The notes under the pieces were generated by a model, which saw nothing but the letters and a program-made list of their open reading frames with translations, made no database searches and was not told the origin of the DNA. A stretch of 64,000 nucleotides of DNA, taken from positions 496,001-560,000 of the forward strand of contig NZ_CP016449.1 of NCBI RefSeq assembly GCF_001713375.1, written 5' to 3'. Positions 6,000 through 55,444 of the stretch are shown piece after piece. Position numbers and translations under genes: made by a program. This DNA is from Hydrogenophaga sp. RAC07 (GTDB lineage: Bacteria > Pseudomonadota > Gammaproteobacteria > Burkholderiales > Burkholderiaceae_C). Positions within the stretch are counted from its first letter, which is position 1; each line of letters begins with the position of its first letter.

Positions 6000-6718
6000 G
6001 CCCCCACACTCCGCCGCTTCGCGGGTCGTTGCCCCCCGAGGGGGCTGATCCGGCTGGGGGCGGCCCGGCGCCGGATCGCCTCTACCATAAGCGCAGCAAG
6101 GCCGAACTCGCGCAGCGCGTGGCGCGCGACATCCACGACGGCGCATATGTGAACCTGGGCATCGGCATGCCCACCCAGGTGGCCAACCACCTCGCGCAAG
6201 GCATCGAGGTGGTGCTGCACAGCGAAAACGGCATCCTGGGCATGGGCCCGGCGCCGGCCGCGGGGGAAGAGGACTACGACCTCATCAACGCCGGTAAACA
6301 GCCGGTGACGCTGCTGCCCGGTGGCGCGTACTTCCACCACGCCGACAGCTTCGGCATGATGCGCGGCGGCCATCTCGACATCTGTGTGCTCGGCGCCTTC
6401 CAGGTCTCGGCCACCGGTGATCTGGCGAACTGGAGCACCGGCGAGCCCGGCGCCATTCCCGCCGTGGGCGGCGCGATGGACCTGGCCGTGGGCGCCAAAC
6501 AGACCTGGGTCATGATGGACCTGCTCGACAAACAAGGCCGCAGCAAGGTGGTGCCCAACTGCAGCTACCCGCTCACCGGTGTCGCCTGCGTGAAACGCAT
6601 CTACACCGATCTCGCCACACTCGCGTGCACGCTGCAGGGCCTGCAGCTCATCGACAAGGTCGATGGCCTGGAACACGCCGAACTCGAACGCCTGGTGGGC
6701 TTGCCCATCGCCGCCTGA
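5996..6718 (+). CDS. pcaJ: 3-oxoadipate CoA-transferase subunit B with a repeat-derived N-terminal extension
   Basis: 240 residues. The catalytic glutamate is Glu77 in SENGILGMGP, and the GAYVNLGIGMPT segment is typical of family I beta subunits. The enzyme domain begins only at KRSKAELAQRVARDI (about residue 33). Residues 2-26, rich in Pro and Gly, are encoded by a dispersed GC-rich repeat found elsewhere as non-coding DNA. AAGGAG lies 5 nt before the ATG, and no other ATG precedes the enzyme domain, so the extension is very likely translated. The gene is coupled to pcaI by ATGA and followed 22 nt later by pcaF. Confidence 0.9.
   Translation: MSPHTPPLRGSLPPEGADPAGGGPAPDRLYHKRSKAELAQRVARDIHDGAYVNLGIGMPTQVANHLAQGIEVVLHSENGILGMGPAPAAGEEDYDLINAGKQPVTLLPGGAYFHHADSFGMMRGGHLDICVLGAFQVSATGDLANWSTGEPGAIPAVGGAMDLAVGAKQTWVMMDLLDKQGRSKVVPNCSYPLTGVACVKRIYTDLATLACTLQGLQLIDKVDGLEHAELERLVGLPIAA
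6002..6077. repeat. dispersed GC-rich repeat, type 1 copy, inside pcaJ
   Basis: The first 76 nt after the pcaJ start carry the same core as the copy at 28933-29013: CCCCCAC-CTCCGC-CTTCG, then a CCCCCCGAGGGGG hairpin. The remainder is also Gly/Pro-coding and GC-rich. The copy length keeps the frame open into the enzyme domain. Repeats of this kind are, to my knowledge, common between genes in Comamonadaceae. Confidence 0.75.
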
Positions 6719-51089: not shown

Positions 51090-51869
51090 TCAGATCATCT
51101 TCTGGATCAGCGCACCCTTGAACAGCACCGGTCCGGTCGGGCCGCGTTCGCTCGGCACACCGCCTTTGGGCTCCAGGCTGACGGCCAGGGCGGGCACTTC
51201 GCGCACATCGGCTTCGCCCGCGGCGAGTTGGAGCAGCCGCTCCTGCGTCAAGACACCCAGGGAGCGCGGACCGCCTGAAGGCGGCAGGGCCCAGAGCTGC
51301 AGCGACTTGTCGCTGGCTTCCTGAAAGCCGCCCACGCGTTGCAGCGTGAGCTTGCCGTTTTTCGGATCGAAGGTCACCAGCATGGAGGCGCTGGCCTGGT
51401 CGTCGTTGAGCACGGCCACGTATTCGATCTGCGGTGTGGCCGAGAGCTTGGCCTGCAGTTCGTTGATCTGCGCGCCCAGGTTGTCGCGCAAGCCCACGGC
51501 GGTGACGAGCGCGAACACGGTGGCGAGTGCACCGGCGGCGGTGGCGCCGCGCCACAGCGCCAGGCTGCGCAGCCAGCCGCTGGCTTGTGGCTTCGTGGCC
51601 TGTGCGCGCGCTGCGGCCATGGCCTGCTGCTGGCTCTCGCCCTGCACCAGGTTTTCAATGCGGGTCCACACGGCGGGTGCGGGTTGTTGTGCGGTCTGCA
51701 GTTCGTTCATGCTGGCCACGCGGCTTTGCCACACCAGGGCGGCGGCGCGCACCGGCGCTTGTTCGCGCGCCATGGCTTCAAAGCGGCGACGGGCGCCACC
51801 ACGCAGGGTGCCCAGCGCGTGGGCGGCGGCCAGTCTGTCGAGCAGTTCGGGGTGTTGGATCAGGTTCAT
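51090..51869 (-). CDS. anti-sigma factor (RskA-type C-terminal domain)
   Basis: 259 residues: an N-terminal helical anti-sigma domain (LLDRLAAAHALGTLRGGARRRFE), a proline/alanine linker, one membrane helix (about 110-130) and a periplasmic RskA-type domain (WALPPSGGPRSLGVL, GGVPSERGPTGPVLFKG, ending IQKMI). It holds the ECF sigma factor encoded just upstream at the membrane until a signal arrives. No zinc-binding His/Cys set is seen, so release is more likely by proteolysis or conformational change. It is last in the ECF operon, 10 nt after the sigma gene. Confidence 0.88.
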   Translation of the reverse strand: MNLIQHPELLDRLAAAHALGTLRGGARRRFEAMAREQAPVRAAALVWQSRVASMNELQTAQQPAPAVWTRIENLVQGESQQQAMAAARAQATKPQASGWLRSLALWRGATAAGALATVFALVTAVGLRDNLGAQINELQAKLSATPQIEYVAVLNDDQASASMLVTFDPKNGKLTLQRVGGFQEASDKSLQLWALPPSGGPRSLGVLTQERLLQLAAGEADVREVPALAVSLEPKGGVPSERGPTGPVLFKGALIQKMI

Positions 51870-51879
51870 GACAGTCTCT

Positions 51880-52452
51880 TCACGCAAAGCGCGCCATGCA
51901 GGTACGCAACTGGTCCAGCCCGCGCCGGATCCAGGTCTTGACGGTGCCCAGGGGGAGGCTGAGCTGCTCGGCCAGTTCGCTGTGGCTGAGGTCGCGCAGG
52001 TACGCCAGGCTCACCACCTCGCGTTGGCGGTTCTCCAGCTTGGCCAGGCACTGGTGCAGCGCCCAGGCCTGCTGGCTGGCCAGGGTGGTGTCCATCGGGT
52101 TGGGCGAATCGCCTTCCAGGGTGTCGGACATCGCGTCGTCGATCTCGTCGGTGAGGTGGGTGCGCTCGGCACTGCGCCGGCGCAGGTAGTCGAGCGAGCG
52201 GCTGCGCACGATCAAACCCAGCCAGGCCATGGGCGGGCTGAGCGAGGCGCGGTAGTCGCCCGCGCTGCGCCAGATCTGCAAAAAGGTTTCCTGCAAGACG
52301 TCTTCGGCCCATTCGGCCTTGCCCACCACACGCATGGACAGGCCATACAGCTTGGACGAGGTCAGGTCGTACAGGGCTTTGAGGGCGACCTCGTCGCGCC
52401 GGGCGACGCGGTCGATCAGGTCCATCAGCAGGTCATCGGGTTGTGCGCTCAT
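51880..52452 (-). CDS. ECF RNA polymerase sigma factor
   Basis: 190 residues. Sigma region 2 includes EDVLQETFLQIWRSA and the linker follows WLGLIVRSRSLDYLRRR; region 4 contains EVVSLAYLRDLSHSELAEQLSLPLGTVKTWIRR. It directs RNA polymerase to genes of an extracytoplasmic response. It is fourth in a minus-strand operon of exported metalloproteins and precedes its anti-sigma gene. The mirrored TGAATCC/CGTATCC elements at 54671-54775 are the proposed targets, including its own operon. Start chosen at MSAQPDD; an alternative lies at 52524. Confidence 0.93.
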   Translation of the reverse strand: MSAQPDDLLMDLIDRVARRDEVALKALYDLTSSKLYGLSMRVVGKAEWAEDVLQETFLQIWRSAGDYRASLSPPMAWLGLIVRSRSLDYLRRRSAERTHLTDEIDDAMSDTLEGDSPNPMDTTLASQQAWALHQCLAKLENRQREVVSLAYLRDLSHSELAEQLSLPLGTVKTWIRRGLDQLRTCMARFA

Positions 52453-52520
52453 GCATTCATTGTGCGGTACCGGCTGGCCCCATGCCCGTGGCGGGACTTG
52501 GAAGTAGGCGGGCAAGGTGC

Positions 52521-53180
52521 TCACGGCCGGCGCCGACGGGGTTGGACCTGCGTGGGCAGGCTCAGCGCCGTCACCGGCGTGATGTTGGCCGCCACGGGCG
52601 GCGCCTCGAGAATCTGGTCGGCGTGCACCACACGCACCTGGGCCGCACCTTCGGGAACACCTTGCAGGGTGGCCACGCCGTTGGCGTCGGTCTGCACCGT
52701 CCAGGGGGAGTCCGCCACAAAGATGAAGCCCCGCATGGAGCCGTGCAGGTGGCAGCCGAGCTGCATGGCGCCCGCTTTGGTCAAGGTCACTTCCGAACGG
52801 GACGGCTCCCTGCCTTCGCCCTTGCCGTCGAGCCGCAGTTCAAAGCCCGACGCCGGTCCGGCATTCAACGACGCCAGCCCGGCGGGGGTGGCGCGCACGT
52901 GGTGCTCCCAGCTGTCGAGGTTGGTGAACGTGACTTTGGAGCCCACGGGCAACACGCTCGTGCCGGGCACGAACTGCATCTTCTGCTGGTGGATGGTGGC
53001 AGAGACCGGGGTGGGCGCGGCAGGCTTGGGACCCGTGGTGGGTTCGATCACCACCACCGCGTCGGCCAGGGGCTTGCCGTCGCGACCGAGCACGGTCACC
53101 TGCACCGTGGCGGCCTGTGCGGCGAGCGGAAACAGCGTGGCGGCGGCGATCAGCCAGGCGGTGGTGTTCGGGTGTTTCAT
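52521..53180 (-). CDS. exported cupredoxin-like protein (methylamine utilisation type)
   Basis: 219 residues with a signal peptide (to LAAQAATV). A plastocyanin-like domain has copper-ligand candidates in FTNLDSWEHHVRA and LGCHLHGSM (His, Cys, His, Met), preceded by a short beta-domain and followed by a C-terminal carboxypeptidase-regulatory-like region (TDANGVATLQGVPEG). It likely carries electrons or copper in the periplasm. It lies between the truncated hemoglobin and sigma genes in the ECF operon. Confidence 0.82.
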   Translation of the reverse strand: MKHPNTTAWLIAAATLFPLAAQAATVQVTVLGRDGKPLADAVVVIEPTTGPKPAAPTPVSATIHQQKMQFVPGTSVLPVGSKVTFTNLDSWEHHVRATPAGLASLNAGPASGFELRLDGKGEGREPSRSEVTLTKAGAMQLGCHLHGSMRGFIFVADSPWTVQTDANGVATLQGVPEGAAQVRVVHADQILEAPPVAANITPVTALSLPTQVQPRRRRP

Positions 53181-53200: not shown

Positions 53201-53677
53201 TCAGCGAACGGTGATCACGTCGCGGTGCATCGGGGCCAGCAGGGCCAGCATCTGGTTCTGGCGGGTGAACGGAATGCCGCGCGCGTCCATGGATTGCTGC
53301 AGCACCTCCACCAGCGCGTTGAACTGGGCGCGGGTGGTGTCCCGGTCGGCGTGTGCGGTCTTCATGTCGGGGCCCTTGTAGACGCAGGGGCCACCGGAGA
53401 GCTGGCAGAGCTGGTCGCTCAGCGACTTGGCAAGGTTGTTCAGGTTGGTGTCCGTGAACTGGTCACCAATGCGCGGATCGGCCTTGAGGCGAACCACGAA
53501 GTCGTCCATGAGGCTGCGGATGCCGGCTTCTTCGCCAAAGGCCTGGTACAGACCAGCGGCGGGTGCCACCGGATAGGCACTGGCGGCAGACGGCGCGGGT
53601 TTCATGGACTGGGCGAGCGTGGCGCCGCTGGCCAGGGCGAACAGGGTGAGGGCGGTGGCGGTGATGAGGTGTTTCAT
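53201..53677 (-). CDS. exported group I truncated hemoglobin
   Basis: 158 residues: a signal peptide (LITATALTLFALASGATLAQS) and a truncated globin domain (LYQAFGEEAGIRSLMDDFV, proximal His in MKTAHADRD). Most truncated hemoglobins are cytoplasmic; this one is predicted to be exported. It may bind O2, NO or peroxide in the periplasm. It is second in the ECF operon, 23 nt after the DUF3034 gene. Confidence 0.88.
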   Translation of the reverse strand: MKHLITATALTLFALASGATLAQSMKPAPSAASAYPVAPAAGLYQAFGEEAGIRSLMDDFVVRLKADPRIGDQFTDTNLNNLAKSLSDQLCQLSGGPCVYKGPDMKTAHADRDTTRAQFNALVEVLQQSMDARGIPFTRQNQMLALLAPMHRDVITVR

Positions 53678-53700: not shown

Positions 53701-54636
53701 TCAGAACGCGATCTGGGCCGAGACGTACACGCCGGTCTGTTTGCGCCCGCTGGTGGTGGCCGGCACGATGCGGCCCAGGTCCACGTAGGCGGCGGTGATG
53801 GACACGTTCTTGCTCGGCGCATACGCGATGAAGATGTCCTTCCAGTCGTCGGCGCGCAGGCCGTCGCCCAGACCGGCGGCCTGGCCGGCGCGCTGCAACT
53901 TGTTGGGCATGGCGCGGTATTCAACACCCACAGCGAGCTTGCTGTTGATCAGGTACGCCACCGAAATTTCCGGCTGCAGTTCGTAGCCGTTGTCCGCGCC
54001 GCCCAGCGTGGCGCCGAAGCCGAGCAGGCCGCCCTGGTTGGCTTTCGTGGCGCGCAGCGTGCCGTTGACCAGGATGCCCTGGGCGAGAAACAGCTTGGTG
54101 GCGCTCACGTACAGGTCGGCGCCGTTGCGCTTGGCGCCCAGGGCGCCGAGCGTGCCGTCCAGGCCGCTGGACTGCAGGTGCTTGAACTGGACACCCACGG
54201 CGATCTGCGGCATCAGGCTGTCGCTGTCGAGCACGGCGTCGCCGGCCACGCGCAGCTTGGCGCCCACGATGTCCTGCTTCAGGTGCAGGCCCGGCAGCCC
54301 CAGGCCTGTGCCGGTGACGCCGGTGCTGAAATCTTGCCGGCCCACCGAGAGCTCAAGGCGGTCGTGGATGCCCACAGCCACGCCATACGCATTGAGACCG
54401 TAGTCGCGCGTCCTGGCTCGACTGACGTAGGCCGACACGCCCACTTCGCCTTCGGTGGCCTGGCTGCCGATCACGGCCCAGGGCGAAATGCCGCCGCCGG
54501 CTGCGCCTTCGACGCTGCTGACGCCACCGGTGAGCAGCAGTTTGCCCGTGTCTGCGTGGGCAGGCGCTGCGGTCAGCAGCGCAGCGGCTGCAGCCAGGGG
54601 CAGGAATCGGACGGGGAGGGCGTTGTGAAGGGACAT
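53701..54636 (-). CDS. DUF3034 family outer-membrane-type protein
   Basis: 311 residues with a signal peptide (ending AAPAHADTG) and alternating strands typical of a beta-barrel (GVGVQFKHLQ, ISVAYLINSKLAVGVEYRAM), finishing with GVYVSAQIAF, an aromatic C-terminus expected of outer-membrane proteins. DUF3034 has no assigned function. It is the first gene of the ECF operon, with the start at 54636 about 28 nt after the predicted transcription start. Confidence 0.82.
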   Translation of the reverse strand: MSLHNALPVRFLPLAAAAALLTAAPAHADTGKLLLTGGVSSVEGAAGGGISPWAVIGSQATEGEVGVSAYVSRARTRDYGLNAYGVAVGIHDRLELSVGRQDFSTGVTGTGLGLPGLHLKQDIVGAKLRVAGDAVLDSDSLMPQIAVGVQFKHLQSSGLDGTLGALGAKRNGADLYVSATKLFLAQGILVNGTLRATKANQGGLLGFGATLGGADNGYELQPEISVAYLINSKLAVGVEYRAMPNKLQRAGQAAGLGDGLRADDWKDIFIAYAPSKNVSITAAYVDLGRIVPATTSGRKQTGVYVSAQIAF

Positions 54637-54670: not shown

Positions 54671-54700
54671 GGATACGCAATGGCCGGCGGAGTGGATTCA
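54671..54700 (-). promoter_or_regulatory. candidate ECF promoter of the DUF3034-hemoglobin-cupredoxin-sigma operon
   Basis: Read on the minus strand: TGAATCC (54700-54694), a 16-nt spacer, CGTATCC (54677-54671). It mirrors the plus-strand element at 54745. The -10 lies about 34 nt before the DUF3034 start codon. The pair is the shared signal in this divergent region, and ECF -10 elements often contain CGT. Confidence 0.7.
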
Positions 54701-54744
54701 AGCGACCTCAAACCGCAGTGGCCCGCAGCGATGAAGGGGCTTTT

Positions 54745-54775
54745 TGAATCCACCGGCGGTGGGGGCTGCGTATCC
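54745..54775 (+). promoter_or_regulatory. candidate ECF promoter of the ferritin-like gene
   Basis: TGAATCC (54745-54751), a 17-nt spacer, CGTATCC (54769-54775), the same two blocks as the minus-strand copy. The match extends to TTGAATCCAC and TGCGTATCC in both. It is about 69 nt before the ferritin-like ATG. Confidence 0.7.
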
Positions 54776-54844
54776 AACGTGACGGTTGTCACTACGCCCC
54801 GTGCCGGTGGACAACCGATCGCCCCACCCAACCAAGGACACCTC

Positions 54845-55444
54845 ATGAACAAGATCCAGACCCCCGATTCCCTGATCTCCCCCGCCTCCCGCCGTGGCTT
54901 CATGCGCAGCGGTGGTGTGCTCTCCGCCGCCGCCGTGGCCCTGCTCGCCGGCAACGACGTGATGGCCGCCGCCCACGCGCAGAAGATGGACATGTCCAAG
55001 GACGTGGGCATCCTCAACGTGGCACTCGGCCTGGAACACGAAGCCATCAACGCCTACCAGCTCGGTGCCGGCAGCGGTTTGCTGCAAAAGCCCGTGCTTG
55101 ATGTCGCCGTGCAGTTCCAGGGCCACCACAAGACCCACCGCGACGCGCTGATCGCCACCATCCAGAAGCTCGGCGGCAAGCCGGTTGCCGAGATGAAGCT
55201 GGAGGACTACGCCAAGTCGCTCAACGCCGCATCGCTCAAGAGCCAGGCCGACGTGCTGGACCTCGCCGCCCGCCTGGAACTGGGTGCGACCAACGCCTAC
55301 CTGAGCGTGATCCCGGCCCTGGGCGACCGCGAGCTGGCCAAGGTGGCCGCGCGCCTGGCGGCCGACGAGACCATGCACTACACCGTGCTCACCAGCGCCC
55401 TGGGTCGTCCCCTGCCTCCTGGTGCCTTGTCGTTCGGCGCCTGA
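54845..55444 (+). CDS. Tat-exported ferritin-like domain protein
   Basis: 199 residues. The N-terminus has a twin-arginine motif (SRRGFM) and a hydrophobic stretch (GVLSAAAVALLAGNDVMAA), so it is probably exported folded. A ferritin-like (Ferritin_2) four-helix domain follows with Glu/His ligand motifs LEHEAINAY, HHKTHRDAL, ELGATNAYL and ADETMHYTVL. It may store or oxidise iron, or scavenge peroxide, in the periplasm. It is divergent from the ECF operon and has its own copy of the presumed ECF promoter. Confidence 0.85.
   Translation: MNKIQTPDSLISPASRRGFMRSGGVLSAAAVALLAGNDVMAAAHAQKMDMSKDVGILNVALGLEHEAINAYQLGAGSGLLQKPVLDVAVQFQGHHKTHRDALIATIQKLGGKPVAEMKLEDYAKSLNAASLKSQADVLDLAARLELGATNAYLSVIPALGDRELAKVAARLAADETMHYTVLTSALGRPLPPGALSFGA

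Follow-up and report, generated by a model that had tools for sequence, protein, structure and literature searches.

Predicted promoters and a small putative regulon of a SigK-like ECF sigma factor in Hydrogenophaga

In Hydrogenophaga sp. RAC07, an operon that encodes an ECF sigma factor and a ferritin-like gene point away from each other, and two copies of a two-block motif lie between them. This arrangement raises the question of whether the blocks are the -35 and -10 elements of two promoters and, if so, which sigma factor reads them. We addressed this question in a window of 64,000 nucleotides (contig NZ_CP016449.1, positions 496,001 to 560,000; positions below are counted within this window), in the complete genome of the strain (4.67 Mb, single contig) and in related genomes. 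A sequence-only reading of the window had described TGAATCC-N16-CGTATCC on the minus strand and TGAATCC-N17-CGTATCC on the plus strand, and both are present exactly and back to back (Table 1). The outer and inner blocks form the claimed inverted repeats: GGATACGCA (54671-54679) pairs with TGCGTATCC (54767-54775), and GTGGATTCAA (54692-54701) with TTGAATCCAC (54744-54753). The coordinates also bear out the distances to the start codons, which are 34 nt from the minus-strand -10 element to the start codon of the DUF3034 gene (54636-54634) and 69 nt from the plus-strand -10 element to the ATG of the ferritin-like gene (54845). The symmetry that had been called a mirror image is real, but it has no special meaning, as any promoter present on both strands looks like this.

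Table 1. Features of the divergent region and of the genes on both sides (window positions).
Feature	Position	Strand	Details
Predicted promoter of the DUF3034-globin-cupredoxin-ECF-anti-sigma operon	54671..54700	minus	-35 TGAATCC 54700-54694, N16, -10 CGTATCC 54677-54671
Predicted promoter of the ferritin-like gene	54745..54775	plus	-35 TGAATCC 54745-54751, N17, -10 CGTATCC 54769-54775
44-nt gap separating the two -35 elements	54701..54744	no strand	upstream region common to both predicted promoters
Inverted repeat GTGAC-GGTT-GTCAC	54779..54792	no strand	just 3' of the ferritin-side -10 element
DUF3034 protein (PF11231), operon gene 1	53701..54636	minus	Pfam
Bacterial-like globin (PF01152)	53201..53677	minus	Pfam; signal-peptide-like start by eye
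Cupredoxin-like protein	52521..53180	minus	weak Copper-bind match (PF00127), barely above its cut-off
ECF sigma factor, SigK-like	51880..52524	minus	Sigma70_r2, Sigma70_r4_2; Cys159 and Cys209 conserved
RskA-like anti-sigma factor	51090..51887	minus	RskA_C (PF10099)
Ferritin-like protein (PF13668)	54845..55444	plus	Pfam; SRRGFM Tat-type start by eye

The ECF gene had been placed at the end of the minus-strand operon. It does belong to this operon, but it is the fourth of five genes, and the gene for the RskA-like anti-sigma factor comes last. The ECF reading frame begins at a GTG (52524); the true start may be an internal ATG (52452), because the alignment to many relatives begins only at about residue 19-30. 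A second ECF-like copy, for which no anti-sigma gene was matched, was seen in the Hydrogenophaga MAG that also contains locus L008 (L016, 6001-6570). Another genome of the genus (G041) likewise has a second copy, with one internal stop, and this is probably the same decaying gene.

The number of motifs was then compared with chance. Base composition alone would give 0.0004 exact motifs in the window and 0.033 in the genome, where four were found; the reversed pattern had no exact match in the genome. With up to two mismatches, the genome contains 16 sites with N16 and 15 with N17, compared to 3 and 5 for the reversed pattern; since the reversed pattern also gives such matches, lone sites with two mismatches are unreliable. 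The genome-wide search that had been proposed as a check thus yielded four exact sites and three with one mismatch. The earlier statement that the pair does not occur elsewhere holds for the window, in which no third match was found with up to one mismatch and spacings of 15-18, but not for the genome, which has two more exact sites and the three with one mismatch.

If the neighboring ECF sigma factor reads these promoters, motif and ECF gene should occur together. Across 67 genomes of the same genus, TGAATCC-N16/17-CGTATYC was found at 64 sites in 34 genomes, and the reversed pattern was found in none. With ECF orthologs defined by E-values up to 1e-40, the motif is present in 34 of the 48 genomes that have an ortholog and in none of the 19 that lack one (Fisher 3e-8, not corrected for shared descent). 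The other 14 ECF-bearing genomes have no match to the strict pattern. Some of the 19 genomes without the ECF gene are incomplete; six of them (G015, G029, G035, G053, G064 and G066) are 99-100% complete. A sample of 299 genomes of the family, four of which are also in the genus set, gave 33 of 78 with the ECF gene versus 8 of 221 without it (again uncorrected for shared descent), and one match to the reversed pattern. The eight genomes with the motif alone are G082, G106, G128, G191, G204, G284, G316 and G356. Judging from this co-occurrence, both divergent promoters are very probably read by the neighboring ECF sigma factor, which supports the original assignment of the blocks as its -35 and -10 elements. 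The further suggestion that one sigma factor controls both sides and itself agrees with the sequence data, but the predicted regulon is larger than the two flanking units.

Conservation at orthologous loci was assessed in 52 sequences, i.e., the window and loci L007-L057. Orthologous regions lacking either block had been named as the observation that would speak against promoters. At the ferritin side, the blocks are kept: all 28 loci have the promoter within three mismatches, 26 with N17 and 2 with N16. At the DUF3034 side, this is the case for 30 of 32 loci (N16 in 26, N17 in 4), with weaker sites in L029 and L037, but many orthologs have retained TGAATCC and CGTA and lost the final bases of the -10 element. 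Among 61 distinct exact sites in the genus, the spacing is N17 at all 17 ferritin sites, and N16 at all 6 DUF3034 and all 8 glutathione peroxidase sites. Spacing is therefore gene-specific across loci, indicating that the asymmetry of 16 and 17 is a conserved property of each target gene. When no DUF3034 gene precedes the ECF gene, the motif is often located directly upstream of the ECF gene itself; four loci without a DUF3034 match (L014, L015, L017 and L031) have an exact motif 25-89 nt upstream of the extrapolated start of the ECF gene. For the distant ECF genes (L058-L068), the best upstream matches are mostly chance-like. In two of these loci (L064 and L065, 34% identical), the match at 6001 is preceded by a TGCATCC-N16-CGT-like site, a hint that this type of promoter may predate the ECF group described here.

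In addition to the two flanking units, the exact sites in the genome precede genes for a DUF4148 protein (61 nt) and a glutathione peroxidase (297 nt). The three sites with one mismatch belong to a second DUF3034-globin-cupredoxin operon (62 nt), a second DUF4148 protein and a fasciclin protein (39 nt). One site with two mismatches, 5 nt before the start of an esterase-like gene, was accepted solely on the grounds that exact sites stand at this distance in three relatives; all remaining sites with two mismatches were excluded from the regulon. In this strain (L155, 1408-2373) and in these relatives (L071, L090 and L119), only 5 nt separate the end of the motif from the ATG of a Tat-type, esterase-like gene, and the recurrence of this distance in four genomes suggests that the transcript is leaderless or that the gene truly starts elsewhere. 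The genes of the second DUF3034 operon (L153, 5302-7495; G000:C1, about 3.495 Mb) are 95, 99 and 84% identical to those of the first, and no ECF gene was matched within the 16-kb stretch around it. Transposase-like ORFs, recognized by eye, follow immediately after this operon.

The sites of the other genomes lead to similar genes. For 58 of the 61 distinct exact sites in the genus, a member of a target family of our strain or the ECF gene lies within 1,500 nt downstream; of the other three, L103 and L125 precede DUF3455 proteins, and L079 is near a transporter-like gene. The fasciclin genes (PF02469) were compared in 30 of 76 matches, one per genome: a site with at most one mismatch precedes 10 of 11 orthologs, and all 19 paralogs examined have at least four mismatches. 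A search of titles and abstracts, which covers few subscription journals, yielded no description of this regulon.

As is typical of ECF (group IV) sigma factors, this short protein matches PF04542, PF08281 and PF04545 only, that is, regions 2 and 4 without region 3, and scores 93.7 bits with the sigma70-ECF model TIGR02937 (cut-off 42.9). By sequence, the closest solved structure is SigK of Mycobacterium tuberculosis (4nqw, 3.5e-23), followed by RpoE of Rhodobacter sphaeroides (2q1z, 2.4e-17). We call it SigK-like and not SigK because its score of 134 bits with the NCBI SigK model NF007228 is below the cut-off of 226. Like SigK, with cysteines 133 and 183, it has two region-4 cysteines that are 50 residues apart (Cys159 and Cys209). 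Cys159 was found in 60 of 62 loci and Cys209 in 59, the other three being unaligned there, and both are present in all 51 loci with at least 60% identity. The redox state of the SigK cysteines is described as affecting SigK-RskA binding in the available text of PMC7509140. The anti-sigma factor contains the RskA_C domain (PF10099, 5.8e-24); it scores 75 with the NCBIfam anti-sigma model (cut-off 100), matched no solved structure by sequence, and has a first helix that resembles AS19-1 by eye only.

In M. tuberculosis and Yersinia, SigK-RskA (ECF18/ECF19) controls the fasciclin proteins MPT83/MPT70, according to the same available text (PMC7509140). As in that system, an RskA_C anti-sigma gene is adjacent here and a fasciclin gene bears a predicted promoter. 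In contrast, the fasciclin gene of our strain is unlinked, there is no mpt83-sigK-rskA cassette, and the predicted targets include DUF3034, globin, cupredoxin, ferritin-like, DUF4148 and glutathione peroxidase genes. By sequence, the pair thus appears to be SigK-RskA-like. The nearest other ECF sigma factor of the genome is only 36% identical. A second ECF gene with its own RskA-like anti-sigma gene (L158, G000:C1:296897-297415) was also noticed, the two products being 37% and 29% identical to those described here. No motif match with up to two mismatches was listed near this second ECF gene, which therefore probably uses another promoter code.

The predicted glutathione peroxidase promoter is located inside, and antisense to, a gene for a MerR-B12 regulator of the LitR/CarH type (PF13411, PF02607 and PF02310, all above their cut-offs, i.e., a MerR HTH and B12-binding domains), and a photolyase-related gene adjoins. 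Genes for the glutathione peroxidase, an amine oxidase, a DUF1365 protein and a cyclopropane synthase-type enzyme (cfa) lie downstream. With its MerR-B12 regulator gene and a photolyase-related gene next to genes of the amine oxidase, DUF1365 and cfa types, the region resembles known light-regulated LitR/CarH clusters. The difference is the predicted ECF-type promoter within the regulator gene; no such antisense promoter is described in the available part of PMC9758184. LitR-type proteins usually repress (PMC9758184, available part), and the protein may be a repressor here as well, in which case the antisense RNA may matter. Of the 67 genomes, 32 gave a match to the MerR-B12 gene, and 30 loci were examined, one per genome, leaving out fragments of G010 and G039; an in-frame stop was present in two of the 30 genes. 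Seven genomes have the ECF gene and no litR site (G017, G033, G065, G056, G002, G027 and G004), and in the first three of these a degraded site is still in place.

The internal position of this site in a coding sequence, together with the relatedness of the loci, could mean that protein coding or recent common descent, not promoter function, preserves the motif here and, by extension, elsewhere. A litR site with up to two mismatches was found in 16 of 23 genomes with the ECF gene versus 1 of 7 without it (Fisher 0.025), a limited contrast, and the sole exception, G064, retains a site with one mismatch although no ECF ortholog was detected. The litR genes of the other six ECF-less genomes, however, have 5-6 mismatches at this site. 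Furthermore, the site is found at an offset of 254, 260 or 263, moving by 6 or 9 nt with indels and yet holding N16, while the spacer is variable; the comparison of motif and spacer columns is partly circular, as its 16 sites had been preselected at up to two mismatches. Codon constraint was judged an unlikely cause for these reasons, and at the other targets the sites are intergenic with diverged spacers, leaving coding or descent as a quite improbable explanation of the motif overall. Even less probable, and in our view hardly credible, is that the inverted repeats in the window form a palindromic operator of a DNA-binding regulator. The repeats are exact and a further one follows at 54779-54792, but the distance between the two -35 blocks varies from 24 to 47 nt among orthologs with both promoters while each copy keeps its internal spacing. 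This reading was rejected because unlinked genes are preceded by just one copy, without an inverted partner, in the same arrangement of two blocks. The additional repeat sits approximately at the expected transcription start of the ferritin-like gene; a perfect form with 4-bp arms is shared by 13 of the 28 ferritin promoters, in which arm positions change in pairs (T-A to C-G). The repeat might act as an operator or form a hairpin in the leader.

A different ECF sigma factor might also be the main reader of both promoters, above all one of the ECF11 (RpoE-ChrR) type, the photo-oxidative system of Rhodobacter, Shewanella, V. cholerae and P. syringae. In the portions of the sources available, the Shewanella RpoE2-ChrR system uses the promoter TGATCC-N16-CGTATT, and its targets include a glutathione peroxidase of the periplasm and a phrB-cfa operon (PMC4336711), the V. 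cholerae motif is TGATC-N18-CGTAT, with a MerR-type light regulator with phr taking part (PMC5241685), and the P. syringae motif (PSPTO_1043) is TGATCC-N16-CGTA (PMC5507510). The near-identical promoter and the shared targets, a secreted-type glutathione peroxidase and the cfa operon, speak for such a reader, as does the presence of other ECF sigma factors in the genome. The -35 element here, however, is TGAATCC, with one A more than TGATCC, and does not match TGATCC-N16-CGTA. The anti-sigma factor is of the RskA_C type with no ChrR cupin partner, and the sigma factor is nearer to SigK than to R. sphaeroides RpoE. All 27 Sigma70_r4_2 matches of our strain lie more than 50 kb from both of its Cupin_7 loci, and Cupin_7 (ChrR-type) matches are entirely absent from 8 of the 34 genomes with the motif. 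The motif is missing from all 19 genus genomes without the SigK-like ECF gene and precedes the SigK-like ECF's own gene, which makes another main reader unlikely. The likeness of motif and targets to the ECF11 system could reflect convergence, a take-over or a shared ancestry in promoter recognition.

Taken together, it is highly likely that the two blocks are the -35 and -10 elements of divergent promoters read by the SigK-like ECF sigma factor, which would switch on its own operon, the divergent ferritin-like gene and some six loci elsewhere in the genome. RNA polymerase with this sigma factor would read both promoters, turning on the RskA-like anti-sigma gene along with the rest of its operon as well as the ferritin-like gene. 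The unlinked targets would be the two DUF4148 genes, the fasciclin and esterase-like genes, the second DUF3034 operon and the glutathione peroxidase-amine oxidase-DUF1365-cfa operon. Both the recognition of the motif by the SigK-like factor and positive autoregulation are strongly suggested by the sequence comparisons.

The signal is a more delicate matter, and that of SigK-RskA is still unknown according to the available text of PMC7509140. In Mycobacterium kansasii, SigK-type fasciclin genes are induced by light (PMC9861118, available part). This induction, together with the glutathione peroxidase and the light-cluster operon in the predicted regulon, suggests photo-oxidative or peroxide damage of the envelope as a candidate signal. 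The membrane-type anti-sigma factor might hold the sigma factor until an envelope oxidative or photo-oxidative signal releases it, although target content and the M. kansasii result point only weakly to such gating; the regulon products would then protect the periplasm and the membrane lipids. More tentatively still, and with considerable doubt, a membrane-gated SigK/RskA-type sigma factor of Hydrogenophaga may have taken over part of the photo-oxidative regulon that belongs to ECF11/ChrR in other bacteria, and it may bypass the light repressor through the antisense promoter within litR. The transcript would then cross the start of litR in reverse and continue into the glutathione peroxidase-amine oxidase-DUF1365-cfa operon, and a single event would thereby give the protective enzymes and antisense RNA to their likely repressor.

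For a sigma factor that may be gated by an RskA-like protein, these comparisons provide a sharply delimited promoter code together with a limited number of predicted targets, and in related bacteria the same motif stands upstream of a few antioxidant and cell-surface genes. The promoter inside litR, if true, would illustrate in concrete form how an antisense start lets one stress circuit override another.
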